DNA from: Syncephalis plumigaleata
Lineage: Eukaryota > Zoopagomycota > Zoopagomycetes > Zoopagales > Piptocephalidaceae
Assembly (NCBI GenBank): GCA_025201365.1
Contig: JAIXMF010000091.1
Span: forward strand, 1 to 41,965
Length of the DNA: 41,965 nt
Reading direction: 5' to 3'
The notes beneath the pieces are model-generated. The model saw only the letters and a program-made list of their open reading frames with translations, did not search any database and had not been told where the DNA came from. A program made the position numbers and the translations under genes. Of this stretch, positions 3,722 to 41,843 are shown one piece after another. How positions within the stretch are numbered: position 1 is the first letter of the stretch; each line of letters starts with the position of its first letter.

Positions 3722-6188
3722 ATGTGGCGTCATGCTCGCACACTAACTGGCCGTCGCTGGCCCTTGATGCTGGCAGGTACTACTACTGCAGCAACAGCTA
3801 CTTGGATGACTTATCGTTGGTCATCTCAACGTGAATCTAGTCGTTCTACTACTACACTAGCAATTCAAAATGCCCCTGAGTCAATAGAGGCCAAGTCCAG
3901 TTTATACACTCGTATGAATTCGATATGGCAACATATATCATTACCATCGATGACGGTACATGCAGATACACTGGTAGATACGGCACCGGTACCGGCAGAC
4001 TGGCATCCACCATCCCGTCAAGTGATGCTAGATCGATTGCAACAGAGTAGTCAGCCCAATGGTGCGCCATTCGACTTGCTGGTTGTTGGTGGTGGTGCCA
4101 CGGGTACTGGCGTGTTGCTTGATGCGTCACTACGCGGACTTAATGTCGCACTAGTGGAGAAGGACGATTTCTCATCAGGTTAGTCTGGTCGATACGCGTC
4201 ATTCATCACATCTAGTTTATTGCTACTTGATGGCTAATTATTGCTATGTGTATCCATGTATCAGGCACGTCATCACGATCGACTAAGTTGGTTCATGGTG
4301 GTGTACGCTATCTCGAGAAGGCGTTCATGGAACTTGATTATGAACAGTATAAACTGGTACGCGAAGCATTACATGAACGTTCGGTATTTTTGCATATTGC
4401 ACCATTTCTAAGTAATCAACTACCGATTATGTTGCCAATTTACAAGCAAGTATTAGCCTGCTATTTCATCAATTTGCGTAATATTGACTAATGACTGTAT
4501 TAGATGGTGGCAAGTACCTTACTACTGGGTCGGATGTAAAGTATACGACATGCTAGCAGGCAAGGAGAACATGGAAAAAAGCTATTTCCTAACGCGTCGT
4601 CGAGCACTTGAAGCATTCCCTATGTTAAAGAATGAGGAACTAGTAGGCGCGCTCATCTATTACGATGGTAGGCACAAATGACATGTAGCATAGAGTGTGA
4701 TTATTAATATACAATGGAATAGGCCAGCATAATGATGCACGTATGAATGTAGCATTAGCCATGACAGCGGTAGCCCATGGAGCAACTGCAGCCAACCACG
4801 TCGAAGTAATGGATCTAGTCAAGGAGAAGAATGAACAAGGAGAGGAGGCGATATGTGGTGCGGTAGTGCGTGACACGTTAACCGGCAATACTTGGACGGT
4901 GAAAGCAAAGGTAAATTGTAATACTAGCTCATTTACAATATGATTAATGTATATACTTGTACGTACTAGGGAGTGGTCAATGCTACTGGTCCATTTATAG
5001 GTTAGTATCAAATAGTAGATGATGATTATGATGATGATGGTGATGATTCACATTAATACTAATATATATATATGTATGCATGCATGTACATTTGTAGATG
5101 GATTACGTAAAATGGATGAAGTCACCACTAATAACATTGTCGTACCAAGTGCCGGTGTTCATATTATACTGCCCAATTATTATGCACCTGCTAATATGGG
5201 ACTGATCGATCCAAGTACAAGTGATGGACGTGTTATCTTCTTCCTTCCGTGGCAAGGCAACACAATTGCTGGCACTACTGGTAGATGATAATAGTAGATG
5301 GCATCTATAGATTACATACTAATGCGTTGTATGTTGTATTAGATTCACCAACAGATGTTACCGATAATCCTATGCCACAAGAAGTGGAAATTCAATGGAT
5401 TCTCGATGAAGTAAAACGTTACCTTAGCGAGGATGTTCAAGTGCGTCGTAATGATGTACTGGCTGCCTGGTCGGGAATACGTCCATTGGTTCGTGATCCC
5501 CGTGCACATAACACGGCGGAACTCGTACGTAATCACATGATTAACGTGTCACCCGACAAGTTGCTCACGATTGCCGGTGGTAAATGGACCACGTATCGAC
5601 ATATGGCCTCGGAAACGGTAGATGAAGCCATTCGCGTATTCAACCTAAAGCCTAGTATGCCATGCACGACAGAGCATACACGCTTGTTGGGATCGCACGA
5701 TTACTCGCCTACCATGTTCATCCGACTTATTCAGACATTTGGACTAGAAACGGATGTGGCCAAGCATCTAGCCGAATCCTACGGTGATCGCGCCTTTCTA
5801 GTAGGATCCATGGCCGAGCAAACAGGACGGCGTTGGCCACGTGTCGGTGAACGTATCGCCATCGGTTACCCGTATATTGAGGCAGAAGTGAGATACGCGG
5901 TACACCATGAATATGCATGCACGGCAGTGGTAAGTATTACTAGCAATAATGATAGTTATATTTAATAGCTAATATATATATATATGTACTGTATAATAGG
6001 ATGTACTAGGTCGTCGTATGCGTTTGGCCTTTTTGAATGCTAGTGCCGCTCATGAAGCATTACCACGCGTCGTCGAGATTATGGCCAAAGAGCTAGGCTG
6101 GAATAAGAAACGACAACGTGAGGAGATTGAACGTGGTGAACAATTCCTACGTTATATGGGCTATAAGCACGAAGACAATGTCATCTAA
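3722..6188 (+). CDS. GUT2: FAD-dependent glycerol-3-phosphate dehydrogenase, mitochondrial
   Basis: Oxidises glycerol-3-phosphate to dihydroxyacetone phosphate at the inner mitochondrial membrane and passes electrons to ubiquinone (glycerol catabolism and shuttle). Spliced length is 659 residues, close to the family norm. The N-terminus is Arg/Ser/Thr-rich with a hydrophobic stretch, as expected for mitochondrial import. Then come the FAD-binding VVGGGATGTG (about 4081), the family signature STKLVHGGVRYLEKA, VVNATGPFID, and AGGKWTTYR (about 5572). Exons: 3722-4178, 4265-4445, 4504-4667, 4723-4910, 4970-5000 (31 nt), 5098-5280, 5343-5929, 6000-6188. They sum to exactly 660 codons. The second intron (4446-4503) only keeps frame if it uses a GC donor (GCAAGT), giving PIYKWWQVPYYW. 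No EF-hands are seen, which is typical of fungal rather than animal enzymes. The ATG at 3722 is the first in frame. Confidence 0.95.
4446..4503 (+). other. GC-AG intron in GUT2
   Basis: The donor reads AA|GCAAGT and the acceptor TATTAG. The GT four bases downstream (4450) would shift the frame. The GC donor joins Tyr-Lys to Trp-Trp-Gln-Val-Pro in frame, as conserved in the enzyme family. Length is 58 nt. Confidence 0.8.
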
Positions 6189-16765: not shown

Positions 16766-19700
16766 ATGACACGACTTATGGATGTTGTGGTGGCACGTCA
16801 CGATTATGTACCCACCGAGGAAGGATGCATTCAATTACATCGAGGCGATATCATTCTAGTGGTAAATCAGGATAATTCAGGCTGGTGGGATGGTATCTTG
16901 TATGAAAACCGTGAACGAGGCTGGTTTCCCAGTGAATATGTTATGACCGCACCACAAGACGTGGTAGATAAGGTTGGTTTATTTGTTCGTGGGATTAGCA
17001 AGTTGCATTATATTAACCCTAGCCTACAGGTTATTAGTGAACAGTCAGCGGGACTAGGGCCTTCCGGTTCAGATTCGGATGAAAAAGTAACGGAAAGTGG
17101 CGAGGAAAAAGAATCGGATAATGAGGCAGTCAAGAGAATCGATAGTTTTGATAGCGCCGCTTCAAATCAAGGCCTCGTATTAACCGCGAATAATCATCCC
17201 ATGCCAAATATTCAGGAGCATAATGCACAGCATTTAGCTGGTGATTTAGCAACGGAGGTAAGTATCGTTAGAATGCATCACTCCTTTCATACTCATAAAT
17301 TGTTACCTATTCAGAATAAACCTGATGAATCAAACAAGGTGAGCATGCATGTTATGTATTATTGTAATCTTTAGCGTACTAATCTCGAGCATGATCCTGT
17401 AGATTCTGCCCAATTCATCGCGATCCCTCACCAATCTCATGAATGGTCTTACCATTGATACGAGTGTCGCATCAACACCTAGTGGTAGATTAGCATCGGC
17501 GACTCAGCCACGAACAGCACCTGTACAGTCAAGCGCATCTATACTACCAGTGACACCTATGCCGCATCAACAGCAACATCAACAATCACAGCAACAGCAG
17601 CAACAATTACAACAACAACAGCAACAACAAGCTGTCCCAGTTGTATCGTTGCAAATGTTGATCGATAATATATTACAACCAATCGCTGAACTACGTAATA
17701 TGCAAACGCTTAATGGTGACAATTGCATCAATTTCACTAATAATGTGGTGCGAGCAGTACGTAATCTACTCTATCATACTGGCGTTAAAGGAGAAGAGTC
17801 ACCAGCATTGGCACAATATCCCGAATTGCGTAATGTACGTCAGAACCTATTTATTTCCCTTAATCGACTGGTTGCCGTTTGTAAGATCATTGCCCATCAA
17901 ACGCCGCCACCTAGCGACACACTTACCAACATGCACACCCATGCGCTTGGTGTGCTCGAACACGTAAAAGCCTTTATCCTGATGGCAACTGAACTGCAAC
18001 TGGAACTCATCACCGAGCCACCGCCACCACCTGCTCTGCATGGCATAGCGCGTACTCAATCGGCCAATGCGGTCGTGGCACATCAGGTACCGCTAGGTCA
18101 GCGACATGTTTCTCGTAGTATCAGTAGCGACAAGTTCCCGCCTAACGTATTCACCTCACAGCAAGGCAGCGTGCTCTCACCCACTCATCGTTCACCGTTG
18201 GCCACGCCTACCACACCGTTTGTTTCGGATCAACACTCGCATGCATATCATCATTCCATTATTAGCAGTGAAGCAGCCGAGCTATGCGATCTAATGGTGC
18301 AGTCAGCGGGAACCATCAAGAACGTACTCGAACGTCTAATGGCACAGATTGAAAGTGGTAAAACCGACTCGACTAAACTTCAATTGATGGTACGTGAAAC
18401 GGTGCACGAGGTGGGTCAGCTATTCTCGCTTATCGGCGATAATCGTACACCACACGCGGAACGCTACGGCGCGACCGATGATCACGACTGGTCTATTCGA
18501 TTCTCGGAGAATTGCGACCGACTATTCGCCGAGATTAAGTCGATGCACTCGGCTGGCGCTGCATTAGATCAATTCCCGGCTGATGGCGCATTAGAATACT
18601 TGCGCACGTGTATCCTACGAGTTCGTAACGCGCTCAATGACGTTGTACTAAGTGGGCGTCAAAAGTTCGCCTATCGTATTGCCGCGCATCGACGAGAAGA
18701 AGAGGAGGAAGCGGCCGCTTTTTCGCACGGCTATTCAACAAATGCCACCGATAGCACTTCGCCAGGTTCGTATGGTCGTAAATCGTCAGAACCGATGTTA
18801 CGCACGTCAAGTGGCAATCCCGTATTGAACAATGATAATCCTCCAGCGACGATGAGCACCGGTAGTTTAGGTCGTAAGACACAATTGGCCAATGCACCGA
18901 AATATGGCATGTCCCGTGAACGAGTAGGATCTGCGAGTGCCGCTCATGACATGGCCAACCCGATGCAATCGCCCACAAATCGACGTGCAACCGATACATT
19001 CTCGCGTAGTCCCACGAATACCGGCAGCAACACGAAGATGATGAAACTATTTGGCGTGGATACACCGCGTGTACCACCTCCAGCATTAAGTGTAAGTATT
19101 GAATAGTATTAGATGATTCATGAATAATAATAATGTTAATTAATTTGCTTTACGAAATAATTAGACGCAAAAACCGAAATTCCTTCTCTATGAATATGAA
19201 GAAGGTGATATCCGTTACAATATGGAGAATCAAATTAGCGGTGGTACATGGCCTGCCCTCGTTGAACGACTTACCCCGCACGATACAGCCAAAGGTAAGT
19301 AATACGCGTGCTACTCCTGGTCAAATGTAACGAATTACTAATGACCTGTCTGCACTCTATAGATGAGGAATACGTTAACATATTCTTCCTTACTTTCCGC
19401 TGCTTTGCCTCACCGGAGAAGTTGGCCGACCAACTTTTGGAGCGATATCGTATTAAGCCACCAAAAGGTTTATCAAGTACCGAATTGAAGATTTGGTCGA
19501 TGCAAAAACAAAAAACCACACGTATTCGGTAAGCGTATACAATGACCATTGATAGCACTTTTTTCTAACTACTAGTTCATGTTACTATTGCTGTCATTAG
19601 GGTAATCCATATGGTTAAAACATGGTTAGAAAAGTATTTCTTCCATGGCAAGGATGAGGTTGCATTGCCGAAACTACGCGAACTAGTGACAATGAACGCA

Positions 19701-21346
19701 AAGATATCGCCTAATACGAGTAATCCTTTGTTGGAATTAATTGATCGCAAGGTGAGTAATCAAGCCGAAGAGGAATAGGCGGCAATACGCAACAATCACT
19801 ACATTCCTAGTGTTAACACCATATGATGTGAATAGGCGAAAGAAAGCCACATGACTAGTATCGTGTCGTCTATCGGTAAAATGTCACCACGTACCGCACG
19901 TCATAAGCAACTTGATCGGTTTACATTAGGTAGCAGGGATAGTACGGGTGATGTAGCACCACCATCGCCCAACTTACCACGACATATTTCCATTGCGTTA
20001 AAGACGCGCAATCTAGTCAATGTCACGGATATCGATCCATTGGAGATGGCACGCCAACTGACCATTATCGATAGCAAGCAGTTCTGCGCCATTCAACCGT
20101 ACGAGCTTATCGATCAAGAGTTTACACGTAAGGATAGTCGCGTTGCAGTTAATGTACGCGGTATGTCCGATCTTAGCAATCAAATTATTACATGGACGGC
20201 CGAGTCTATCCTATTTGAAGATGACTTGAAGAAGCGTGCCTCCATTCTGAAATACTACATCAAATTGGCCGATGTAAGTAGTAATAATGACAACTAGTGT
20301 ATCTATATACATAAATACTAACGATGTTTATAGAAATGCTTATCCTTGAACAACTATAACACTATGATGGCTATTCTTAGTGCTATACGATCAGCGCCAA
20401 TCGATCGTCTTCGTAAAACATGGGAGGTAAGCTAATCACCTGTATTATTACTATAACTTGTGTTACTATAATACTGACATCATTCATTCTTATATTAGTT
20501 GATTCCCAATAAGACGAAATATGTGCTGCAGTCATTGCAACAAAAAGTGGATCGTACCAAGAATTACAAGGAATACCGGGAGCGTATTCGTCAGTTGCCA
20601 CCACCTTGCATCCCATTCTTTGGTAAGTGACTAACAATTAAAGATATAGGAGTACAACTAATAAACGAAACAATCATCACGATCATTTAGGTATCTTCTT
20701 GACCGATATTATTTTCACAGCAGACGGTAATCCTGATTACAAGGATCGATTGGTCAAATCGGATGATCAAAAACAAGAGAAGCTGATTAACTTTGAGAAA
20801 TACCGCTCAATGGTTAAGATTATCCAGAATATTCAGTCATTCCAAGTGACGTATAATCTAACACCAGTCGATGAAATGCAAGATTACCTACGAGAGCGTC
20901 TCGGTGCAAGTAAGACGGGCGGCAATAGCGATCGACTCTACGAGATGAGTTTGATCATAGAACCAAAGGATGAACCGGCAACGATGCGTCCATCATTCCC
21001 ACCTCCACCATTACCGCAATCGCCTACGGAAGAGACAGCACCTACTGCTGTTAATAATAATAGCAGTAGTAATAATGGTGCTGATTCTACTGCTCAATCT
21101 GAACCTACAACAACAGCAGCAACTGATGTTACATTAGTCAATTCAGATGTTAAAGCATCATCACCTGTATTGGATACAGATGAAGCAGCAGCAACAGCAG
21201 GAACAACTGCAGGTACATCGGATGAAAGTGAAGTGACTCAACAGGAGGCAGCAAACAATAATGGTAACAGCGTTGCTGTCTCATCCACATCAGCATCATC
21301 TGCACCGGCACAGGCAGCTGAATCAACCGAGATTGTAGCATCATAA
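16766..21346 (+). CDS. CDC25: SH3-containing Ras guanine-nucleotide exchange factor (RasGEF-A, Cdc25-like)
   Basis: Activates Ras by catalysing GDP release. Ten exons from ATG 16766: 16766-17257, 17315-17338 (24 nt), 17403-19091, 19165-19294, 19363-19528, 19601-19751, 19836-20273, 20334-20426, 20499-20622, 20691-21346. They sum to 1321 codons. An SH3 domain occupies residues about 6-62 (RHDYVPTEE, SGWWDG, RGWFPSEYV). A polyglutamine segment (about 17563-17632), a helical middle, the RasGEF_N domain (QISGGTWPALVERLTPHD, FRCFASPEKLADQLL) and the catalytic domain follow. The catalytic domain has PLEMARQLTIID, CAIQPYELIDQEF and PPPCIPFFGIFLTDIIF. The SH3-plus-RasGEF layout is that of fungal Cdc25. 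The tail is Ala/Thr/Ser-rich. A 57-nt in-frame stretch at 16973-17029 could be an optional intron. Confidence 0.95.
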
Positions 21347-24396: not shown

Positions 24397-25618
24397 TTAA
24401 TTATTATTGTAAACAATTATGGTATCTATAAGCATTTTTTCTTTAGATATACTATTCGTCAAGTTCTCGTGCAAATATCTACGAATAGATGCATAGCTTG
24501 CATCAAGTTTTTCTTGCATGGTTGTCCAGTTACAATCACTAAATACAGTAATAGTTTTCTTCGACTCTTCTATAACATAATTTGCGTGCGTGCCATAGCG
24601 TGATAATGCATGTGATAGAACAATAATAATTGTGTCGTATTCCTTTTGCTTCGTTATGTATTCATTAATACGAGTGTTTAGCTTAGTAGCTTCCTCCTTG
24701 TGCTTTTCATCCAAATGCACTTCTCGTGTATCCAATTCCTTCTTCTTATTGTCCAGCTCTTTCCTTTGTTGTTCCACTTCCTTAGTCCGATTATCCAATT
24801 CTTCTTTTTGTTGTTCAGCTTCCTTTGTACGATTGTCCAGCTCTTCCTTTTGTTGTTCCACTTCCTTAGTCCGATTATTTAATTCTTCTTTTTGTTGTTC
24901 AGCTTCCTTTGTACGGTTGTCCAGCTCTTCCTTTTGTTGCTCCAATTCCTTTGTACAATTATCTAATTCTAGCTGTTTCTGTATGAGCTCCTCTTCGGCT
25001 TTAGCATGCTTCTCTTGTGCTTCTTTCAGTTCTTCCTTTGTTTGATGTAGTTGCTTCTCCATATCGTTGATCTCATTCTGCTTAGTAGCATTATCCAGTT
25101 GTTGTTGCTGCGTATTAAGCTTAATGCTATTCATTTCCTGCTGTTGCGGACTCTTCTCCTTTTCGAATTGATTTATGCGAGTTGCCTGCTCCTTGATTTT
25201 TTCCTTAGCCATGACAAGTTGATTCTTTAGCTGAACATTTTTACAACCTTGCTCACCAATGGTTTTTATCGATTTAATCTGCTCATCTTTTGATGCAAAC
25301 AGTTCGTTTCTTGATGCAAGCAATTCGTTTCTTGATGTCAGCAATTCGTTCCTTGATGCAAGCAACTCGTCTTTCAATGTGCATAGCTCGTTTCTTAATC
25401 GAGCGTTCTCTTCAAACAACCGAAGCATCCCATCATGTGTTGTTTCATTCAACGATTGTCCTTCTTTCTTTGTGTTTAACTCATTCATCCCTTCTTGCTT
25501 CGTAGCGTGAATTCCCTTCAGGATAAGGAATTCAACTGAGTTCTGTAGCTCTACCTATTGATTCATTTTGTAAGTAACGATATACGCTGTTTCTTTACCG
25601 CATTACCTTAGAAGACAT
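24397..25618 (-). CDS. Long coiled-coil protein built from heptad-multiple tandem repeats
   Basis: Unknown family. I infer two exons: a 12-nt first exon (25618-25607, MSSK) and, after a 52-nt GT-AG intron (25606-25555), a long exon in the same frame starting VELQNSVEFLILKG. Without that intron the first ATG in frame is at 25488. The product is almost entirely coiled coil: five or so copies of a 7-residue unit (ELLASRN, about 25285-25385), then five to six copies of a 14-residue unit (ELDNRTKEAEQQKE, about 24745-24960) in which A and V alternate between copies. The C-terminal 100 residues are not repetitive and carry VFSDCNWTTMQEKLDASYAS. That end is duplicated nearby on the other strand. No signal peptide or membrane segment is seen. 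Confidence 0.75.
24745..24960 (-). repeat. 42-nt coding tandem repeat (two heptads per unit)
   Basis: The plus strand shows repeated blocks of TCCTTTTGTTGTTC-like sequence with a 42-nt period and an 84-nt higher-order period (CCACTTCCTTAGTCCGATTA alternating with AGCTTCCTTTGTACG). Each unit encodes ELDNRTKE(A/V)EQQKE. Confidence 0.8.
25285..25385 (-). repeat. 21-nt coding tandem repeat (one heptad per unit)
   Basis: The plus strand repeats CGTTTCTTGATGCAAGCAAT-like units with a 21-nt period, encoding E-L-(L/F)-A-S-(R/K)-(N/D). About five copies. Confidence 0.75.
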
Positions 25619-28734: not shown

Positions 28735-29749
28735 ATGAAGTTCTCCACTGCCAGCATTGTTGCATATGTCGCCGTCGTCGCCGTCGTCCTAGCCGGTACC
28801 ACTACCATTGAGGCAAAGCCAATACTGAATCGTCGAGGTATGTGATAACAATAACCAATTCATCAATCCTGTTTACAATGTAATCTAACTCACGTAATAA
28901 CCTCTATTTATCAACTAATAGAACGTAAGCCATACATAATATGTAGTTGATGTTGTAATAGACCTCTGTGCTAATATACAATTATTGCTCTTATCATAAT
29001 GGATATCATCCAATCGATAGCTCGTAAGTAGAGTGGACTCGATGAATAGACAAGAAAACATTAACGATTTACCTTTATTGTACACCCCATTGATCCTACT
29101 CGAGTATAGTCAGTAAGTGACACTGCATCGAACTTGCTCTATCTGGATTGTACTAAATGACCACATCCTACTTGGTGATACAAATGGCATTAATAGGATT
29201 TTGTAAGTTCCTTAGAATGCATATACACATCTAAATTTATTAACGTTGTGTGAATAGCTTGTAAGTGATACAGTAGATATTGCAATGTATACGATTAGTA
29301 ATTAATACTTGTTGCCTATATCGTTACTTCATCAACAGTATGTAAGTATTCCTATGGCATTTGGCATTCCTATACTAATACTTTATCAACTATTACGCAT
29401 CTACTTCATACTAGTCGGTAAGTGATAATAATAGCTGATAGCTTGTCTAATTCACTAACAATACAACATTCTTTCATTTATTGCTAATTATCTCGAGTAT
29501 AGGTCGTAAGTGTTTATACCAAGTGATTGCCTTAATACTAATCCTTCTCTTCATTATCACGCTTATCATCCGATAATCATTAGGCAGTAAGTTGCAATGT
29601 TATAGCGGTACTGTTATTGCCAGACATACTAACAATACATTATTATATTCCTATACCTAACAGTATGTGAGTATCAATGTAGCGCATATTATGTTACACG
29701 TACACTAACAAGCTAGTCCATTGTTTATTGTATGTTTGTTTCGATAGAA
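28735..29749 (+). CDS. Micro-exon gene encoding a short secreted peptide precursor
   Basis: Exon 1 (28735-28837) encodes a signal peptide (MKFSTASIVAY, a Val/Ala core, ending near TTTIEA) and a spacer KPILNRR, finishing with one extra base. Ten micro-exons follow: 28922-28924 AAC, 29021-29023 CTC, 29110-29112 TCA, 29197-29202 GATTTT, 29258-29260 CTT, 29339-29341 TAT, 29415-29417 TCG, 29503-29505 GTC, 29584-29586 GCA, 29664-29666 TAT. A last exon starts at 29748 and supplies AA, completing a split TAA. Every piece is preceded by AG. Donors are GTATGT, GTAAGC, eight GTAAGT and GTGAGT. Introns are 55-96 nt, several with CTAAC or CTAAT branch-like motifs. The spliced product is 45 residues ending KPILNRREPLRFSLFGRI. 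It has no stop before the last junction. Cleavage after RR would free EPLRFSLFGRI. I recognise no homologue. Gene logic resembles schistosome micro-exon genes; the shared logic is an analogy, not homology. Confidence 0.85.
28922..29749 (+). other. Array of ten 3-6 nt micro-exons plus stop-completing exon
   Basis: Each unit has the form AG-NNN-GTAAGT (one has six bases), spaced 58-99 nt apart. All internal exons are multiples of three and lie in phase 1, so each adds or removes one amino acid (or two) and rewrites the codon at the joint without shifting the frame. The final TAA needs a T from the preceding exon. Exons ending in T are GATTTT, CTT and both TAT copies. Joining to any other exon would read past this stop. 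Confidence 0.82.
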
Positions 29750-30278: not shown

Positions 30279-33200
30279 TTAAATGGCATTCTTTTCACGA
30301 TTTTTGTTCAAATTATGTGCACGTCTTCCTAACTTATCGTGGCCACGTAGTTCGGCGAGTGTTAACGAGCAGTAAGCATCGAATGTGGCAACAGCGGTGG
30401 GATTCGATGGATTGTCCGCTCCGGCGCCGTTTGGCCCTAATTGAACGCGACTACGCGGTGCATTCCGATTAAGTGACGAGGCGCGTGCGCGTGGTGTCAC
30501 ATCAGTTTCATTCGAGACGTTCTCATTGCTGGTATTCTCTGGTCCCGCACTAGAGCAATAACGTAAAGTAATGATGTCAATAATGTGCACATCGTTATAT
30601 GACGTAGACATTGCATTTCGTACTTACTTTCGTTGTTCCAATCGCAAGCTGGCAAAGTAGAGCTTCTCGGGATCGCCGTTCGTTTCAGAGTTCTCTAGCA
30701 AGCGGCCTAAAAAGCTTTGCAATCTTGGTAGCGGCTGCGTTTGAAATGGCGACGATTGAAAGCGTTCAATTTCCATGATAAGTCGCATACTTTGCAAGTA
30801 TTTGTGGAATGGAATACGCGGCTCATTCGACATCGGTTCAGGTGATGTTGCGCCGTTGTCCATGGTGGGTCGACGTACCGGAATAGTCGGTGAGCTAGCA
30901 TCATCGATAAAGGTCAAATCGCGTAGATATAAACCTATCAACAAGTAGTTAGTACATACACATACATATACATGTAGAGCAATAATGATTAGTTTACCTA
31001 AGAATGGAATACAAGGCAGTGCTATCTCACGTAGTGTTTGTCGATAGGTGGCACAGTTTCGACGATGATCAAAAACATCACGCAAATGGGTGAGTATTGC
31101 AATGTTACGTTTAGAAATCAGCTATTTGATAATGATATATACATATACGTATATACATATTGGTTAGCAAGTATTACAATAAATAGTTATTCATCGTGGT
31201 AAACTCACCTTCCATGTGCGAGATAGTCGTTCCAATACCGAGGAATCCAATGCTGTGATAATGGCAAGAACCGCGTCTAGATTACCCAATTTGAAACAGG
31301 CATCGGCCAATTTGATGAAGTAGCGTAGAATCTCTGCACGTCGCTTAAGATCCGCCTCAAAGATAATAGTCTCCGTAACCCATATTGTCAACTAGATGTA
31401 ACATTATTGTTATTGTTAATTACAACTCATTGAACTGAACTGGTGTACTCATCAAATGATCGCTTACCTGACGTGTAAATGCCACTACCGCTTTGACGTT
31501 AGGCGAAATAGTGTCGTCTTTCTTCGAGAATGCTTGACCGATAAGCTCGTGTGGTTCAATAAGTACGAACAAGTCCCATTCCATCAGTGTTATCTGGTTG
31601 GCCAACTCGGTTGGTTCAATGTCGAATAGTGTTAGAATACCGCTGAGTGGTGCAGCCACCGCACTTTGATGATCGAGATTAATTGAACGACGATTGCCAT
31701 CGGCGGCAGAAGAGGGATTGATCGTCCATATTGGTCGTGGTGATATGGGTCCTCCATGTCGAGTGCGTTTAACCTATACAGATATGTATATAATAAAGCA
31801 TAAATGAATTAGTTAACATTGAATGAATAAATAAATGAATAAATATATCTGTATCTATACCTTTTCTTTCATGGCAGCTAGTAGTCGTTTTGCTAGAAGC
31901 GGTGACATATGCATTACTGGGCCGGCTACAAATCGTTTTAAATCCCTTAGACAAACTGTATCCTGCTTAGCATCCCAGTAGGATTCAAGCCATAATTTAA
32001 CGATATTAAATACGCTATTATCCGCTAAATGTTAGTAATCATTCATCTTGTTCTGTATATGTATACGTGTATATTCTTACCGTAGACGCACTGGTACAAG
32101 TTTCTTATCGAGCCATGTCTTGCATTCCTCGTTGTTTAGATTAGAGGGTGGCTTAAGCGCATAGCGTAGATACAACAACTGTGCGAACTCCTCCGGCTTA
32201 CAAAATAATCGAAAACAAGTCAGGAATGTTCGAGTGAATAGGGCGTCGGCAATACTGTCGTGTGGCGTCAACTGATCGACTAGTGCGCGTAATGTTCCCG
32301 ATGAGACTGTTCCCTCCATGTTGTACATAAGATCCATGGGCGTGTGCTCATTCTTAAGGAACCACGGAGTGAACGGTTGTTCTGCGGCTGCCTTGGCCAC
32401 TGCATGCTCGTCTACACCAAAGAACTTTGACGCCTTACGTCGATAGGGCATTGGCTGTGGAGTTGCCGCCGCTATCGTATCATCCTTGAACACATCCGGT
32501 GAATTGAGATTGACTGGCGGTGTCTGTGGACTGAGACCACCACCACCACCACTACCCTGAGCTAATGGAGCCGGTGTTAGATTTGGCGTGCATCCCGGTT
32601 GAATCATCTCTTCAAACGTAGCAGCAGCCCGTGTTGCTTCACCCGGTGTTATATCCTCTACCCTTGGTATAGGAGATAAGAATGACTCTGGATCATTGCT
32701 ATGCTCCTCTGCCATCACATCATCCGCTATACTATCCGCCATAGAAGTGGTGAACATACTCAAGTCAAGTACAGGCGTTGAAATAAACTCTAAATCCGTA
32801 TTAATAGCACTTGGTATGTGTGCATGACGTGATGCTCGTTTTGCGGTCTTTTCAGTTGAACTAACAAGTGTGGTTGCTGCTGCTGCTGCTACTGTAGTAG
32901 TTGTAGTAGTTGTAGTAGTGTCTTCTGTAGCATCTACCAATGGCATAGATGGCATCGGCGGTAGAACACCAAATTTATTCGATGATAGTATTTGCGCACC
33001 AAATGGTTGCATAGTCACTGATTTTCTAGATGGCACGAGTACAAATGTATCGCTACCAAACTTTGATTTATGTTTATCTTCCGCTGTAGTGGAATCGCTA
33101 TTATTGTTATTGCTGTTGTTGTCGTTATCATAGATTTGAGTAAATGACAAATTACTGTTAGTGTTGCTACTTTGTTCATGCGTAGCAGTAGCAGTAGCAG

Positions 33201-34380
33201 TATTATCACGAAAATGGCGCTTTCGTCGAATAGGCTGCTTGTTCGATTTCTTCGCCGGTGAAGGTGGCACTGGAAAGCTATCCACTAACCGATTGATTTG
33301 TGCCTTATCCTTTTGATGAGCGTACGATGAATCCGCTCGATAAGCACTGTCGAATGAGTCAGCGACCGATTGTGCTGTATTTGTCAGGCTTCTTGGTATA
33401 ATATTCGGCGAGTTTGACTGCGACGATGGACACGAGCCGTTCGAGTTATTGAGTAATAAAGGCGAGGACGGCGTAGAGGCCGAGTGGTGTTTAACGTGAA
33501 TATCCGCGTCGAGTCTCTGGCTAGTAATGGCGGAAGGATGAGAATTTCCCCCAGTAAGATCATCACGCTCGGATCCCTGCGGTAATGGTATGGGTGGTGG
33601 CGATGGTGCTGCCGACGCGTGATATGAGAGACGCTGTATTAGGCGCTCGGTCGATGGATGTTTCGTTGATCCTTGGAACGACTCTTCGAGCGATTCTTTT
33701 GCTTCAGCGTGGGTAATCCAGCCTTGAGCTAGTTGTACCATCTTCAGTTGATGCACCAACTCGGCCGAACCAGCAGTTGCCGCCTTGGGACGATTGCGCC
33801 TAGTTACAACTCGTTGAGGCAGTCCAGGGCCATTGATAGTATTGCTTATGCTTGTACCTGTGCCTGTGCTTGTACTTGAGCTTGAGCTGTAGTTGCCACT
33901 TCCATCTGCATGCGTCTTCTCCTGCATACGCATGCTAGCGAGTAGGTTAGGCTCCACTGACTGTGCACGCTCCATCTGTTCGAGTAGGATTTGTGCTTCA
34001 CTGCGTCCGCTATATCGATTGTCCTCGTCAAGTAATGCATCGGTTGTATAGCCGGCAAACGACCCGGCTTGCACACTTGATAGTATCGGTGAAACGGCCA
34101 TATAAGTTGGTTTAGGTGATCGTTGTTCTGGTAACGCGGAAGGAGTAGACGCAATAGGCATGGATGAGAATGCATCTGCAATTGTCGCAGATTCTAACAT
34201 ATCATCAAGCGCATAATCCGTATGGATGGCGTGTGTAGTCGATGCAGCGTCATTATCATTACCGGTACCTTTCATTATATTGACTCCAACTAGTGAAACG
34301 GCACTCTTTGTATGCGTAGCTGTAGAGAAGGCCAGCATGTTTGTTGACGCTTGGTCAAACTCTGATCGATGATACTCCAT
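30279..34380 (-). CDS. Ras guanine-nucleotide exchange factor (RasGEF-B), no SH3
   Basis: The first in-frame ATG is 34380-34378 (MEYHRSEFDQAST); an upstream stop closes the frame. The first exon (to 32081) holds about 700 residues of low-complexity Ser/Thr/Asn-rich sequence, then the RasGEF_N domain (TVSSGTLRALVDQLTPHDSI, TCFRLFCKPEEFAQLLYLRY). The catalytic domain is spread over the following exons: VFNIVKLWLESYW, IEPTELANQITLMEWDLFVL, EPHELIGQAFSKKD, WVTETIIFEADLKRRAEILR, PCIPFLG then LYLRDLTFID, and a Leu/Glu-rich end. The stop is at 30279. The intron at LVPVRLR/VFNI has the same position and phase as in RasGEF-A and -C. No SH3 domain is seen. It is probably a Ras-family activator; the target GTPase is unknown. 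Confidence 0.92.
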
Positions 34381-36478
34381 ACTATCTAGCACAATGTGTA
34401 TCTAGTGATATACTTGTGAAACACTTCTTGAACCACTCGAGTATACCTCCTATTGACTACACACTTGTACGACTGCTGTTGCTGCTGTTATTGTAGATGT
34501 TGCTGTAGTGTATTGATGGTAGTTTTCTAATTCGATCTACGTTAACTAATATTTGTATTTGGTGATGCGTCGTAGTACACGTTGGTCAACCTAATAGTTC
34601 CTTGATTTGGAAATATAAGATAGCTTAAAAAAGGTATTCATATAAGGCCTGTGTAGTATCCGTGCCAGCCGAAACTGTATCTTGCCTATGTACTATAGTA
34701 CGTGAAATGAGAGTGAAATGAGAGAGAAGAAAGAAAGAACGAAGGTATGATATCAAAACGCAATAAGGGCACACGATTCGGCCAAGTATACTTGCTATCA
34801 TAAAGGTGATTAGTCTATCTATAACGAATTATCATTCTACTTACCAGTGAAAGATTGATGCAAGTGTAATGAAGAGAATACTATATGAAATGAAGTGAAA
34901 CAGAAAGTCGTAGTTGTAGTAGCTGTAGCTGTTACAGTTATTGTAGTAGTAACAAACAAACAAACAAGTAGTAGTAATATATTATATTATAGCAATAACA
35001 GTGGTTGTAGTGAGCAATAGATAAAGTTTAAGTGTAGGCAGAGTAAAGAAGGAGGTGTGTAATTACGTTTGAACAAGAATATTCTCAACTGCGACGATGA
35101 TTAGTATTGTTTTAAACTGGTAACAAGCCAGTTTGAAAAGAAAGAAAGAAAGAAGAGAGCGGAGAAACAGACTAGTGTGTTTATGGGTGAGGTTGCGCGG
35201 ATAGAAAATGAGGAAAAAGATACGCACACACAGAGAAAGAGAGCAAGAGAGAGAGAACAACAAGTCTGCCATCACAAACACACAAACGAATGGAAATGAG
35301 CAGGCCAACGCTAAACGGGGTGATGCCAATGAAGGAATAATCCAGGCACACCATACTATACAAGATATTAGATACTGCCCTACACACACTGCACCACACA
35401 TACACACATGTATACACACATACATACATAAAATATATACATGCATGGTTAATTATTAAGCTAGTTAGTAAGTAATCTATTAATATACTCCTACAAGTGT
35501 ATGAGTGTAGGAGTGTAAAGTTGAGTGTGAATATTAACAAGGAAATGCTATTGGTCGGAGTTTAATGATACGATTTTAAAGAGTAGCACACTTTAGCTGG
35601 AGAACAAAGTGGATACACAAGATGTAATTGTACGGCTAAGGTGTACTTTTGTGTGTGTGTACGCGTGTGTGTGTGATCGAGACGCTGCTTTCTTCCTTTG
35701 TAGGGAAGCAGTCAGCTGTTATTGCTCTATGCCAATCTACGTGTACACATGTATGAGTGTATGAGCATGTGTATGGCTGTATTGATGCACATGTATAGAT
35801 ACACGTGTAGAGCAGTGACGATAGTACAAGGTGGTTTATCAATGATATCTGTATTGGCATGGTCATTTAGCATTCTCATTGATTACATGTGGTTCTACTA
35901 TTTGAAACAGCCAAACTGTAAAATGGCAATGGTTCAGGTTCAGGTTCAAAATAAGCATCATTCTATCAGTGACAACAAGGAGATCCTCATACGCATTCTT
36001 AGATATTAATAGATGTTAGTAAAGGATCAAGTTGTATATACATAGATGCTAACTAAAAATATGCAAAATAGATAATGTTCATTGTTAAACTAAACAATGA
36101 CAAACTGACTTGTCATAGAATCAACTATTATATACAAGCAACTACTACATTCATGACATTTATAGAAATACAATAACATAGTGAATCTATGGTGTTTGTG
36201 TAAACTAGCATCACAGCCATAATCATTTATTTCAATAAATGATACGGTAGAGGAAAGAGAAAGAAAGAAAGAAAGCGAGAGAGAAAAAGAGATGTTACCA
36301 TAATTATTATATGATAGGCAATGCACAAAAAAGAGAAAGAGAGAGAAAGAAGGATAATGAATAAAAAAGTAAAGCGAGCAAGAGTACATGAAGTGGAAAT
36401 ATATATATATATACGTATATATATATTCCTATTGGCATAGCAGCCATTATTGTTATTACTATTACGATAGAATAATGC
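34381..36478. promoter_or_regulatory. Long purine/pyrimidine-skewed region upstream of RasGEF-B
   Basis: About 2.1 kb between the RasGEF-C stop and the RasGEF-B start. The plus strand carries GA-rich tracts (34715-34745, 35135-35170, 35229-35262, 36250-36295, 36329-36350), so the transcribed minus strand is CT-rich. This mirrors the long CT-rich stretch before RasGEF-A. ACACACATAC-like runs (35385-35440) and a TA run (about 36400-36425) are also present. Open frames here are low-complexity and not supported. Confidence 0.45.
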
Positions 36479-39400
36479 TTAACCTTCTCGTGGTTCTAAG
36501 CGTAGACTAGCTTGATATAGTGTTTCTTGATCTCCACCCGTAATCGATTCATCAAACCATTTACGCATACTATTCTGAACGGATGCCACCTCGGTCATCG
36601 GATAGGGCATCACCTGGAATCGTTGAATCTCATTGAGTAGTTGCACGGTTTTGAGATATTTACTAAAGTTGATCATAATATGAGTGGCGGTTGTGCATCG
36701 TTTCAGCTTGGCATTGCCGTCCTCGATGAACGTCAAGTCAGTGAGATACACGCCCATAAATGGCAAGCAAGGGGGGAGTTCCTGCTTGAGACGAGCACGA
36801 TATGCGGCAAAGTTACGAGTACAATCACAGGCACGCGACAATGCATTGAATGAAGTCATTGATCGATTTGATATCAACTATATGTGTGTATATACATGTA
36901 TATTTGATGAGTTGATATACTTCATAGTCATGCTATCAATGTGCTTACCTTCCAGGTACGTTTCAATCGTTGAATATTCGACGAGTTAAGTGCACTGAAA
37001 ATGGCAAATACCGAGTTGTAATTCTTCAATTGTAGACAACGCTATAATGATGAATCAATGGATTAGTTAATATCGTATATATAATCATAATCATAATCAT
37101 TCTACTACGCCATTTACTTACATCGCCCACTTTAATGAAATACTTGATGAGATTGGCTCGTTTCTTAATGTCATTCTCATAGAGAATAGTCTCTGCCACC
37201 CATGTGGTCACTTGTGTACTAAGTGTACTCATGGCCTTGACATTTACCGCCAAGCTGTTCTCTTTCTTGGAGAACTCTTGACCGATCAATTCACGCGGTG
37301 TAATGGCACAGAATAGCTTACTATCCATTAGCGTCAATTGATTGGCAATCTCATTAGCATCAATGGACAACACCGAAGTGGGTGCCTTTGACTTTGAGGA
37401 TAAAAGCGACGACATCGTACTTGATGAGGTGAGCGTGTCTGTAGCTGGAGGTGTATCAGGCGAGGAGGATATCGCTACCGATTGACCAAATAGCGCTACC
37501 CTCGGACTCAATGGTACTGATGAATTAACAGCTGTACCCGCGACAGCCGGTAGATTCAATTGTCCCATTGATATCTAGAAGAAGAATGGTAATAATGAGT
37601 GGTGAGATTGTTTCTAGAAAAGGGCAATGTCACACTTACACGTTTGTTGATCAATTTAACGAGACGATCTGCTACGGCGGGTAGTTCGGGATGAACAACT
37701 TCCGTAACAAATTCAAGCATGTCATCCAATACAACTGAATCCTCTTCCGGGATAAAATAGGCTTCAAGCCAACTCTTGGTAATATTAAATACACTACATT
37801 GTATAATGTAAACATGGTTAGTAATGTGGTGACATCTTATTGTTTGATATCAATCTGACGGATAAATAATAAACACCTACCGGAATCGTAATGGCACCAA
37901 TTTCTTCCTGTGCCATTCCTCTTTTTCCTCCTCGGTCAAACCTGCCGGTGGTTGAAGGGTGAATCGATCTATTAGCAGTCTCAAGAGATGTTGCGGTGGA
38001 CAGAAGCAACGGAAGCACAAAAGGAATGCCTTTGTGAAATCCATATCTGTAATAGATGAATATACACACACATTAATATGATGATGATCATCTACCTTTT
38101 CCATTATCAACTTACCTGCTGCTTGATCGTGTAGGGTCAATCGCTCCACCAATGCCTCCAACGTACCACCGCTAACTTTATTATTATTGAACATAATGTC
38201 CTGTGCACGATAATCATAGCCGAGATACCATCCTTTGGGTTTTGGAATGCTCTAAATATGTCGTCGTGTTAGTCGTATGATTAATCAATATTAATAAAAA
38301 GTGTAGCCATTAGTTAATTACCTCTAAGAAATCTGGTGTTTCATTCGGTTCATCCTCTTCTTCTTCATCCTCTTCCTCTTCATCGTCTTCGTTCTCTTCC
38401 TCTTCATCGTCTTCATCTACTACTCCTTCATCTTCCTGACGACTACTCTGCTCAATATCATTCTCTGTTGTCTCATTGTCATCATCATCGTCATCGTCAT
38501 CATCATCGATTCTCTCGTCCAGATCGGAATCGGAGGTATTGTCCGTGAATTGAACGCGTTTAGACGTGACTACTTGACGTTCGTCGGATTCCGACTCTTC
38601 GCTATGTTCACCGGTACTTGACGCGTTATTATCATCTTCAACCGTGGTCAAGTTGTTCACTGGATGATCGGCCATTGGTAGGAATTTAACACGTGGACCA
38701 GTTGATCTCGTCACATCCTTCTCATCGTCATCTTCCGCGGTCGTGGTTGTCTCCAATCGTTCCTCGTCCTCATCACTCGCTATATGACTGGTGTCGGGTG
38801 AGGTTACAGCTAGTGCAGCCGATGATGATGATTCCTCACTCTGACTATTGCTCATACTAGCGGTAATAGTCGAGTCATCAGTTGAGGCAGAGTTACTAAC
38901 GGGGAAGCCATCGACATGATTGGCCATTTCATTGAACTCTCCATTAGATGGTGGACCATTGATGTCTCCATTGAAGATACGCTTAGGAGATAGTTCAACG
39001 TTGGATTCAGTCCTGACATCCTCGGTTGATACATTGATGGGAGTAGGTGTCGTCGACTCGATGTTATCCGGCGTCAACTCCATCGCATCATAGCCGTATA
39101 ATGAGCTGGACACCGTATCGATCGAGTTCTGCGATCGATTGTTAGATATATTCGATATGATCGATTGTCGGTGTTGATTCACTTCTAGTTGTCCTAGTCT
39201 GGCCGGTTGAACAATCGGGGAAGACTTGTCGAGCGTCTCCTCTAATGGCGATAGTAATGACTCCTCCGGTACAGGCGAGGTAGGCATGGCCAACGAGCTA
39301 ACAGGCTGATGACGACGTTGCACTTGTCCCACATTACTCGATGTCAATCCAGGACGTGGCGAACTACCAATGGCGATGAATTCATTGAGTGACCCAACGC

Positions 39401-41843
39401 TACAGCTGCGTCCTCGCATGTTATACGACTTGCCCGGTGTTTGTTGAACAGGCATCGGCAGCAAGTTATTATTATTATTAGAGGGAGCGTCATCATCCGA
39501 TAGATCATCCGGAAATGATCGACTATGTGGACCGGCACTCTTTGGTGGTTCGGGCATCATTGGAAGTAGGCCCGGTGATGCGGGTGCCGTGTGTGGCGGT
39601 ACAATAATGGAGGGCATCGATGGACGACGCTGACTTGTTGACCGTTTGCGTGGCTGTGCTCCCGGTGATCGTCGACCGGCAGCAACCATAGCGGCGGCAT
39701 TAGATGGTGAATTCGGTGACAATGACCCTTGACTAATGGTACGACGTGGGTCTACATTGAATGGTGGTGTAGTGGAAGGTGGCGGGGGAGGAATAAATAT
39801 GTTGGCATCAGTTACACGACGTGTACGTGTCATGCGCGATACAAGCGATTCATTATTTAATCGTTCGGCACTGCTGCGTGTAACCATACGGTGTTGCTGT
39901 CCTCCTGCCGTGCTAGGACTATCGACCGGTGGTAATAATGGCGACGAGGGTGTAGCCATAGTTATGGCGCTATTGGATCGAGAGCGTGACATCATTCGTA
40001 CACTGTCCGACAATACATCCACGGTGTGATTACGATTAAATAAGGGTCGAGGTGGTAAGCCGGTCTGCGAGTTGCCGTTCGAACTTCTCGACTTTAATAA
40101 TGGTACAGGGTTAAATTCGTTAGGGCTCAACTCGCCCGATGGTGTTCGTCGTACATTGCCGTCATGTGGCGGTGAGGCCAATGTGGCCGATTGCGGTGTG
40201 GGCAGTGTAGGTGTGGGTGGTACGGCCGGTATATTCATGGTATCGACGACCATGGCACGCGACGCTTGTCCCATTACAACTTGACCCTCTGACGGTGTAC
40301 CACGACGATGTGACAATGATCTTCGCGAGATAATGGCGAGATTTGTATTACCACTGGTGGACATGCTTACTGTGTGTGCATTTCGTGGCGGATTAGCTTG
40401 TACTGCGCCATCATTAGCAACTCCATTACGTAGCTGACCAATACTCTTGACACGTCGACCTGAAATCATACGTGCCTCAAAGCTTATAGCTGCCGCAGCA
40501 CTATTAGGCGGTGATCCTATTGCGCTGCCAGCATTAGTCGTTGATAATGGTGATGTTGGTAAAGTGATATTGCTACTATTACTATTGCTAGCCATAGCAG
40601 TATTGTTGCTAGTAATATTACTGCTATTATTACCATTTTGCATATAATAATTGGGATTATTGTCGCTAGGCTGACTACTAATGGAGATGGCAGAGTCATC
40701 TGCATCACTTGTAGGGGATGCCACTAAAGACACTTGGTCTCGTGCCAGTAAACGGGATAGCACCTCTTTCTGTCGGGCTACTGCTCGTGCACCGGCCACT
40801 GCAGCATCGGCCGCCTGAAGAATACGATTGGCTCGACTGATAAGTTCCGTGGTAGGCAGTGTCTCCCCTGTCGTTCTCGACTTTCTCACTGTAGACGAGA
40901 GTAGCTGTGCCTCTTGTAGCAATTGCGAGCGGATACCGTCCAATTCACGAAATGCGTCCATTAAGCGTTGTCCTCGATCGGCGTGAGTTGATATCGCGGC
41001 AGTGTCGATTAATGCCTTTGGTAGCATAATACCCGCTAGTGCAGAATATAGTTGTTGAACTGTACTAAGCACGGATACTGATTGTGCGGTTAGCGAACCG
41101 GTAAGACGAATAAGATCCGGCGAGGTTAACGTAGTAGTGCCAATCTCGGCATTGTCATTATCGTTATCGTTATCACTGCTATGTTATTATTGCTCGTCTC
41201 GGGTGTCTCCATAACATTGGCAATTGATTGTAGTGTGGCGAGGATACGCCCAACTGCTGTGCCTGCTGCTTCGCGATGGTGTGCCGCCTGTGCAGTAAGC
41301 GCTAAATCCGTCAACGACGGCATACGCATCATCGGTGAGGTAATCGTGGCAACAGTAGGCGAGGTAGGAAACGACGATGAAGCGGGTGATGCCAGCGCGC
41401 TAGATGAATTCTCGCTAGCCGATGCAATCGAAGACATGCTACCTTTTGGTCGTGGTGACATCTTCAAGCCGGTAGGCGATGTAGCAATACCTATACCATT
41501 CGTGGCAACTGTATTTATATCATCAGATGGTGGTAGTATAGATACCGACTGATTGGTGCGATGCCTACTAAGGCTCTTACGCAGTTCATCGGTATTTTCT
41601 GCGTCTGCTAGTGTAGTCACGGCGGGTGCAGAGTCTGCGCGAGTCATCACACCGATGGGATGAGCGGTAGTAGAATCGGTTACATCTGCGATGCCCTCGT
41701 CCAACTCATCGTCAGACATTATTAAATCACGCTGCGACTAATTAACACGATATTAGCATCGTCTAGTCACTATGATACATTATATAACTTACTTTACCCC
41801 GAGCAAGGTTTAGTTTAATGACATCGGATAGACTCCACGTCAT
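36479..41843 (-). CDS. Large Ras guanine-nucleotide exchange factor (RasGEF-C) with acidic tract
   Basis: Exon 1 (41843-41793) encodes MTWSLSDVIKLNLARGK. A 55-nt GT-AG intron leads to a long exon (41737-38322) starting SQRDLIMSDDELDEG. That exon holds helical N-terminal segments, a long Ser/Pro/Asn-rich region and an extreme Asp/Glu tract (38340-38510). Next: exon 38251-38116 (SGGTLEALVERLTLHDQAA), exon 38046-37881 (FLLCFRCFCPPQHLLRLLID), then from 37793 (VFNITKSWLEAYF), then DANEIANQLTLMDSKLFCAI, ITPRELIGQEFSKKE and LPPCLPFMGVYLTDLTFIED. The stop is at 36479. RasGEF_N and the Cdc25 catalytic domain are complete; there is no SH3. Near 41180 the frame must shift by one base to join NVMETPETSNNN to DNDNDNAEIGTTTLTS. 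No GT-AG or GC-AG intron fits, so it is an apparent single-base lesion in a GATAAC repeat. Confidence 0.9.
41175..41186 (-). other. Apparent single-base frameshift in RasGEF-C
   Basis: The upstream frame runs on to a stop near 41126. The downstream frame has a TAA just before AGCAGTGATAAC. Both sides look coding (helical, continuous in style). The spot is a short GATAAC tandem repeat, prone to slippage or to consensus error. Confidence 0.55.

Follow-up and report, generated by a model that had tools for sequence, protein, structure and literature searches.

Genes for secreted peptides of the conotoxin type combine a conserved signal peptide with a hypervariable, cysteine-rich mature part. The micro-exon genes (MEGs) of schistosomes, a set of 35 genes, contain 10 to 20 short exons each, most of them 15 bp long (range 6-81 in the body of the source and 3-81 in its abstract), separated by introns of 0.1-5 kb (PMC10526429), and the bicycle genes of aphids have about 17 exons on average, which are larger and in phase 2, with a gene structure that evolves slowly (PMC9168663). 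Tiny exons are also represented by the 1-nt exon of Arabidopsis APC11 (PMC4674806) and by the microexon of Trichoderma Xlr2 (PMC11121469). These descriptions, and the comparisons drawn from them below, follow excerpts of the cited papers. Syncephalis, in the excerpt of the source on this genus, is a mycoparasite of the order Zoopagales (PMC10386755). As the best explanation of the observations as a whole, we consider it very probable that Syncephalis plumigaleata possesses a family of secreted-peptide genes in which nearly every exon is about one codon long. The gene layout, its open reading frame, the signs of coding, the constraint on splice signals and six exact joins in one intronless paralogue are all read directly from the DNA.

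One of these genes lies in the window, that is, the whole stretch of 41,965 nucleotides that was analysed (Table 1). An earlier note on this DNA had proposed a row of ten micro-exons, nine of 3 nt and one of 6 nt, each following AG; by direct reading, each of them follows TAG or CAG. The eight GTAAGT donors that it counted are present, the other two micro-exon donors being GTAAGC and GTGAGT, and its range of 55-96 nt for the introns agrees with the eleven measured lengths (in order, 84, 96, 86, 84, 55, 78, 73, 85, 78, 77 and 82 nt). Between positions 28925 and 29591, GTAAG occurs nine times, as the note had stated for about 670 bp, and this density indeed exceeds chance: the array stretch contains nine YAG-N3/N6-GTAAG sites, compared with 0.05 on average and never more than 2 in 2,000 dinucleotide shuffles. 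All ten internal exons are multiples of 3 nt in length. Joined in phase 1 (slashes denote junctions), they produce the frame G/AA C/CT C/TC A/GA TTT T/CT T/TA T/TC G/GT C/GC A/TA T/AA, which is open, reads EPLRFSLFGRI and ends, again as the note had it, in a TAA formed exactly across the last junction (29666/29749). The joined codons directly after the end of exon 1 are AACCTCTCAGATTTTCTTTATTCGGTCGCATATAA, and the conceptual product, MKFSTASIVAYVAVVAVVLAGTTTIEAKPILNRREPLRFSLFGRI, consists of 45 aa. The proposal of a fungal micro-exon gene behind a signal-peptide exon is thereby supported, the splicing being deduced from the DNA; with the same high confidence that we attach to the explanation as a whole, the gene is predicted to encode a small secreted peptide whose mature part is specified by almost one codon per exon.

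Table 1. Predicted exons and introns of the micro-exon gene in the window; slashes mark exon boundaries
Feature	Positions	Strand	Sequence context or basis
Exon 1: MKFSTASIVAYVAVVAVVLAGTTTIEAKPILNRR, a putative signal peptide with a dibasic site, and the first base of the codon that follows (phase 1)	28735..28837	+	donor GTATGT
Micro-exon 1, AAC (3 nt)	28922..28924	+	TAG/AAC/GTAAGC
Micro-exon 2, CTC (3 nt)	29021..29023	+	TAG/CTC/GTAAGT
Micro-exon 3, TCA (3 nt)	29110..29112	+	TAG/TCA/GTAAGT
Micro-exon 4, GATTTT (6 nt)	29197..29202	+	TAG/GATTTT/GTAAGT
Micro-exon 5, CTT (3 nt)	29258..29260	+	TAG/CTT/GTAAGT
Micro-exon 6, TAT (3 nt)	29339..29341	+	CAG/TAT/GTAAGT
Micro-exon 7, TCG (3 nt)	29415..29417	+	TAG/TCG/GTAAGT
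Micro-exon 8, GTC (3 nt)	29503..29505	+	TAG/GTC/GTAAGT
Micro-exon 9, GCA (3 nt)	29584..29586	+	TAG/GCA/GTAAGT
Micro-exon 10, TAT (3 nt)	29664..29666	+	CAG/TAT/GTGAGT
Start of terminal exon; first two bases AA complete the stop T/AA	29749..29752	+	trained exon-blind model
Eleven canonical introns, 55-96 nt, between the exons	28838..29748	+	

A splice model that was fitted on array introns and is blind to exon length and frame chose exactly these 11 introns. A hand-weighted model selected a nearer last acceptor and one extra intron, with a frame that runs to 60 aa, and the 3' end is therefore the least certain part of the gene. On both strands of the window, this array is the only cluster with at least 6 introns and short exons between them; one additional chain of 5 introns has exons of 10, 12, 38 and 5 nt. 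A second copy of the locus (L030, contig C351) is 98% identical, with all ten micro-exons unchanged and one substitution in exon 1; of the 18 substitutions in 28838..29748, 17 are located in intron interiors, one in a donor and none in a micro-exon. A neighbouring protein has 96% identity to S. plumigaleata BDF22DRAFT_684328. Two versions of many loci, about 98% identical, are present, one on a short contig and the other on a long one (C375, the contig of the window, and C351; C359 and C329; C186 and C362), so that the assembly seems to contain second haplotypes or strain copies.

The earlier note had also suggested a search of the genome for further arrays. The S. plumigaleata assembly (32.6 Mb, 383 contigs; counts include second copies) contains many of them, some with up to 73 consecutive 3-nt exons, the longest run being that in L022. 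YAG-N3-GTAAGT is found at 3,791 sites genome-wide, compared with 1,132 in the reversed control; the corresponding numbers are 885 and 1,493 for YAG-N4-GTAAGT, and 1,101 and 1,227 for YAG-N6-GTAAGT. Pairs of N3 sites 60-90 nt apart number 1,801, against 20 in the reversed control, and pairs 30-60 nt apart number 64, against 18. The excess of single N3 sites corresponds to about 2,700-2,900 three-nucleotide exons with the GTAAGT donor alone, second copies counted. Among the N6 matches listed, there are more than 20 copies of the 15-mer TAGCTACTTGTAAGT, many on contig C1, which resemble a dispersed repeat and not micro-exons.

The array structure was quantified in 38 arrays with at least 8 introns each, a non-random sample in that most of the loci were fetched for holding arrays; L004 and L036 overlap on one contig, and one copy was dropped. 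These arrays contain 895 internal exons, of which 779 are exactly 3 nt long and 863 are multiples of 3; among the others, 29 exons have a length of 2 modulo 3, and 3 exons a length of 1 modulo 3. From the reversed sequence, the same procedure recovered 33 exons in 4 clusters, and 5 of these exons are 3 nt long. Introns flanked by 3-nt exons have a modal length of 80 nt and differ from one another in steps of single nucleotides while the exons stay at 3, and a CTRAY branch-like site is present in 319 of 371 such introns, most commonly 46 nt upstream of the acceptor.

A hydrophobic exon 1 of the MKF... type, a putative signal peptide, is found in the window gene and in at least 150 places of the genome. 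The 31-residue signal exon of the main class, MKFSAVIAIAVAVVALTSLVAVEASPVLDRR, is represented at at least 150 places (169 candidates, 150 scored); the exon 1 of the window gene is absent among the 150 scored matches and, when aligned with the main-class exon, has the MKFS, A-P and RR positions in common with it. Exon 1 of the main class has 94 nt and ends in phase 1, typically followed by CTC, a 9-nt exon and a 5-nt exon, the last of which shifts the array to phase 0, so that each later 3-nt exon is one codon. The stop is located in the final exon, usually as ...TAAGCA. The conceptual products of L024 (84 aa, 47 of 48 introns before the stop) and L040 (88 aa, 52 of 53) have cysteines in the mature part; the models of L014 and of the second genes of L040 and L041 are partial or leave the locus, and L043 gave no model from exon 1. 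The window gene is in phase 1 throughout, has no phase-switch exon, and its introns, which give no model match, fall outside the array-intron family; it is a short, divergent case among the many array genes of the genome and has the architecture of the main class, of which it may be a member.

Under exon-blind splicing, the frame that starts in exon 1 stays open as far as the last exon in 14 of 15 gene models, the exception being L027 with an early stop. Because frame +1 is also open in 11 of the 15 genes (frame +2 in 2), openness by itself is weak evidence of coding, and we dropped it as sufficient proof. The phase-0 codons of the arrays include no stop among 504, with 10.5 expected from position-wise composition (P 2.6e-5); the rotated frames contain 59 and 6 stops, each in 482 codons. 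Codon usage in the arrays is correlated with the usage in 324 codons from eight intronless paralogues (rho 0.68, p 2e-9), compared with rho of -0.12 and -0.11 for the rotated frames. Four of the six one-for-one codon changes between L040 and L041 are synonymous, and L012 ends in TAA where L033, at the same place, ends in TGA. An avoidance of splice-like codons (CAG, GTA) in micro-exons was also considered and dropped, the intronless paralogues being equally biased.

The splice signals of the arrays are under constraint, as judged from six pooled copy pairs (two pairs with rearranged modules were excluded). Intron interiors changed at 290 of 14,589 sites (1.99%), compared with 5 of 1,337 in donor hexamers (p 3e-7), 5 of 994 in branch pentamers (p 8e-5) and 5 of 669 in acceptor triplets (p 0.008); in the same pairs, the micro-exon bases, with 10 changes in 740, did not differ significantly from the intron interior (p 0.13).

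At nine places, exon 1 runs straight into CTC/GTC-NNCAA without an intron; the pattern of this join has 62 matches, against 36 in the control, and only the nine coinciding with exon-1 places are meaningful. Eight intronless members (L046, L051, L052, L054 and L056-L059) have intact reading frames, and a ninth stretch, upstream in L038, likewise reads on without intron 1. The intronless L049 contains CGTCGTG+CTG+TTG+TCGAAC+GCC+GTG+CTC uninterrupted, which is identical at 28 of 28 nt, with all six joins exact, to the end of exon 1 and six micro-exons of L016, L020 and L022 when these are spliced; in each of the three arrays, every matching piece is preceded by TAG and followed by a GT or GC donor, and the introns are 71-99 nt long. 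The donor after the CTG micro-exon is GCAAGT in all three, an instance of a GC-AG intron within an array that the intronless copy confirms. L047 carries the joined stretch of L049 minus one base. For the other arrays, joins are matched in intronless copies only at the first one or two (at most 18 nt) and otherwise at chance level, and no intronless counterpart of two mature array products was recovered when the genome was searched with them. The intronless copies also point to a 3'-UTR acceptor, TTACAG/AACAAG (L015), that lies upstream of the one chosen by the trained model. In a tree of exon 1, which is weak with its 93 columns, 12 intronless and 21 array members are intermixed, with 10 changes compared with 10.1 in shuffles, and a single intronless clade is rejected (p 0.004). 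Under the simplest reading of these sequences, the scattered intronless paralogues would be recurrent copies of spliced messages.

The gene models of the depositors contain, in order, 105 of the 129 3-nt exons predicted in three genes: 39 of 42 in P0004/L024, 41 of 47 in P0010/L025 and 25 of 40 in P0012/L028. The omission of the remaining 3, 6 and 15 exons would agree with the view that the arrays are transcribed and mostly skipped, exon 1 being joined to the 3' exon and the micro-exons being occasional or mere noise; moreover, nearly all of the exons are symmetric and hence the frame would be kept on skipping. The codon usage, the avoidance of stops and the exact joins in the paralogue, however, require inclusion often enough to matter, and we regard predominant skipping as highly improbable. 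The depositors' models themselves may be ab initio predictions, because the micro-exons omitted in two of the three genes mostly have weaker donors.

The array introns comprise one sequence family, which extends to arrays that have other signal exons (L003, L011 and L021), and in the main class, the mean pairwise identity of introns within an array reaches about 0.75, against a shuffled baseline of 0.61. Such relatedness, and the turnover of units in the way tandem repeats turn over, would also be expected if the arrays were satellite-like tandem repeats, with a unit of about 83 nt that by chance contains splice-like motifs and with untranslated 3-nt spacers. This alternative, which we consider barely credible, is at odds with the lack of stops in the 504 codons and the frame-specific codon usage, with the conservation of donors, branch points and acceptors above the intron interior, with the exact joins present in the intronless paralogue, and with the second family (L003, L011 and L021), in which 0 of 96 exon sites changed as opposed to 170 of 2,621 intron sites (6.5%), the opposite of the main class. 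The array in the window is not a tandem repeat, because its introns match each other no better than shuffled ones (0.61-0.62). The long pieces in the chain of the second family are probably unrecognised introns. One recurring intron, which starts with GTAAGTTAACACGTGG and ends with AATACAATAG, followed by GCC or GCT, is found on C27, C62, C318, C340 and other contigs.

Within arrays, when two introns are at least 95% identical, the codon upstream of them is the same in 52% of the cases and the one downstream in 67%, compared with 3-5% in general (these values come from 21 pairs and are slightly inflated by the overlap of L004 and L036). An intron and its codon thus appear to be copied together, given that near-identical introns share the neighbouring codon. 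Turnover of whole modules is directly seen in a few gene pairs, and its generality would be an extrapolation from these: the alignment of L012 with L033 includes the gain of one whole module (CTT) and the loss of another (GGT), a codon was replaced along with its intron between L036 and L037 (GAT to ATT, with 29 intron differences), and a 164-nt gap between L040 and L041 equals two modules. The collinear runs compared between main-class paralogues were selected for introns that are at least 80% identical, and some genes enter more than one run; in these runs, 104 of 447 sites in 3-nt exons are different, as are 843 of 10,910 sites in introns. When the main-class gene pairs are restricted to one set without overlap, the respective numbers are 48 of 123 and 264 of 2,952. 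That the codons change faster than the introns suggests diversifying selection, and homogenisation of introns could contribute to the difference in rates.

The same intron sequence inserted in many unrelated genes is the hallmark of introner elements, and the direction of evolution might be reversed, such that the intronless genes are ancestral and introner-like introns were later inserted between codons. The presence of one intron family in arrays with other signal exons, along with the existence of intact intronless paralogues, fits this scenario. Nevertheless, we find it unlikely: when the array-intron model was applied outside the clusters in the fetched loci and the window, 39 of 39 matches adjoined array stretches that had been missed and none fell in the ordinary genes of the window, the sharing of codons by near-identical introns points to duplication of intron and codon together, and the intronless copies are scattered on the exon-1 tree.

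In the family of single-codon exons that we favour, the short introns and strong donors would suit intron definition, whereby the spliceosome would remove each intron of about 80 nt. Removal one by one is expected, because a 3-nt exon cannot host two splicing complexes together, and each ligation would bring the next donor up to the growing exon. The product would then be exported, and cleavage after the RR dibasic site of exon 1, presumably a Kex2-like site, would free the mature peptide. The peptides may act extracellularly, perhaps where the parasite meets its host fungus; the products perhaps have an effector role, a suggestion that derives from the lifestyle of the organism and from analogy. 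The evolving unit would be an intron plus a codon, about 83 nt, that can be duplicated, deleted or replaced, and with whole units turning over, the protein would change by whole codons without damage to the frame.

A more far-reaching version of this scheme, to which we assign somewhat less than an even chance, is a codon-cassette system, in which each amino acid would be separately duplicable, deletable, swappable and, via exon skipping, optional. Recombination between similar introns would shuffle amino acids one at a time and always leave the frame intact, and spliced messages copied back to the genome would fix useful versions as intronless genes. If true, such a mechanism for generating effector diversity would have no described counterpart.

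In exon layout, the Syncephalis arrays agree with the micro-exon genes, and no sequence homology with MEGs is claimed. The comparison with schistosomes in the earlier note holds for the way of working and fails for the exon size, the short related introns and the module turnover. Like the MEGs, so far as the excerpted source goes, the Syncephalis genes form an expanded family in a parasite, with products that are here predicted to be secreted and to have an N-terminal signal peptide, and with long series of very short exons whose lengths are mostly multiples of three; unlike the MEGs, they have exons mostly of 3 nt, up to 73 of these in a row, and introns of about 80 nt that are related within the main class, in an independent lineage (PMC10526429). 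With the aphid bicycle/megacycle genes, in the part of the source considered, they share the status of putative effectors, putative signal peptides, many small internal exons in a single phase and fast protein divergence, and they differ in the single-codon exons and in modules that turn over between gene copies (PMC9168663); the phase 2 and the exons larger than one codon that define bicycle genes are not what was found here, the exons being 3 nt long, in phase 0 in the main class and in phase 1 in the window gene. APC11 (PMC4674806) and Xlr2 (PMC11121469), as described in the excerpts, indicate that spliceosomes can include exons of 1-3 nt, as needed here; in those cases, a single tiny exon resides in an ordinary gene, whereas Syncephalis has arrays. 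Similarly to the conotoxin-type genes, Syncephalis has a conserved signal exon and a fast-changing mature part that is cysteine-rich in several products; differently from those genes, its mature part is split into single-codon exons, and no homology is claimed.

Overall, the layout appears far more extreme than that of known micro-exon genes, with proteins that appear changeable codon by codon. Beyond the view of the earlier note were the spread of the arrays over the whole genome, the paralogues that lack introns and the turnover of modules. In the open-licence literature, preprints excepted, we found no account of Syncephalis micro-exon arrays or of arrays of single-codon exons. Should RNA confirm them, these would be, to our knowledge, by far the densest intron-exon arrays. 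If correct, the findings would challenge the current ideas on the smallest exon that the splicing machinery can define, raise the testable question of whether neighbouring splice sites 3 nt apart are used in a strict order, and reveal proteins that evolve by whole codons as modules. The secreted proteins of early-diverging fungi may be undercounted, because genes of this kind would be overlooked or garbled by standard programs for gene prediction and read alignment.

Searches with two products returned, among the matches listed, only Syncephalis and metagenome/ENA proteins. No Pfam family reached the cut-off with seven array products, one of which scored 17.7 bits against the Pfam Conotoxin family (cut-off 25.1), and an Rfam search of the window gave no match. 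Some of the metagenome relatives, all of them protein records, retain intron 1 (...DRRGTSGHGHIN), and others read as if joined (...DRRAPQ...), the latter of which may represent intronless genes or cDNA. In P0013, P0015, P0019-P0023, P0025, P0027 and P0029, the translated start of intron 1, G-T/M-S-G-H-G-H/R-I-N/D, is conserved almost to the degree of the signal peptide, which hints that intron 1 of these relatives opens with a conserved element.

Elsewhere in the window, there are two separate RasGEF-type genes, at 17403-21343 on the plus strand (DUF7783 and RasGEF pieces) and at 32080-41183 on the minus strand (RasGEF_N). Between them, at 24397-25554 on the minus strand, a reading frame of 385 aa with long heptad-like repeats (KEELDNRTKEAEQQ...) apparently encodes a coiled-coil protein.
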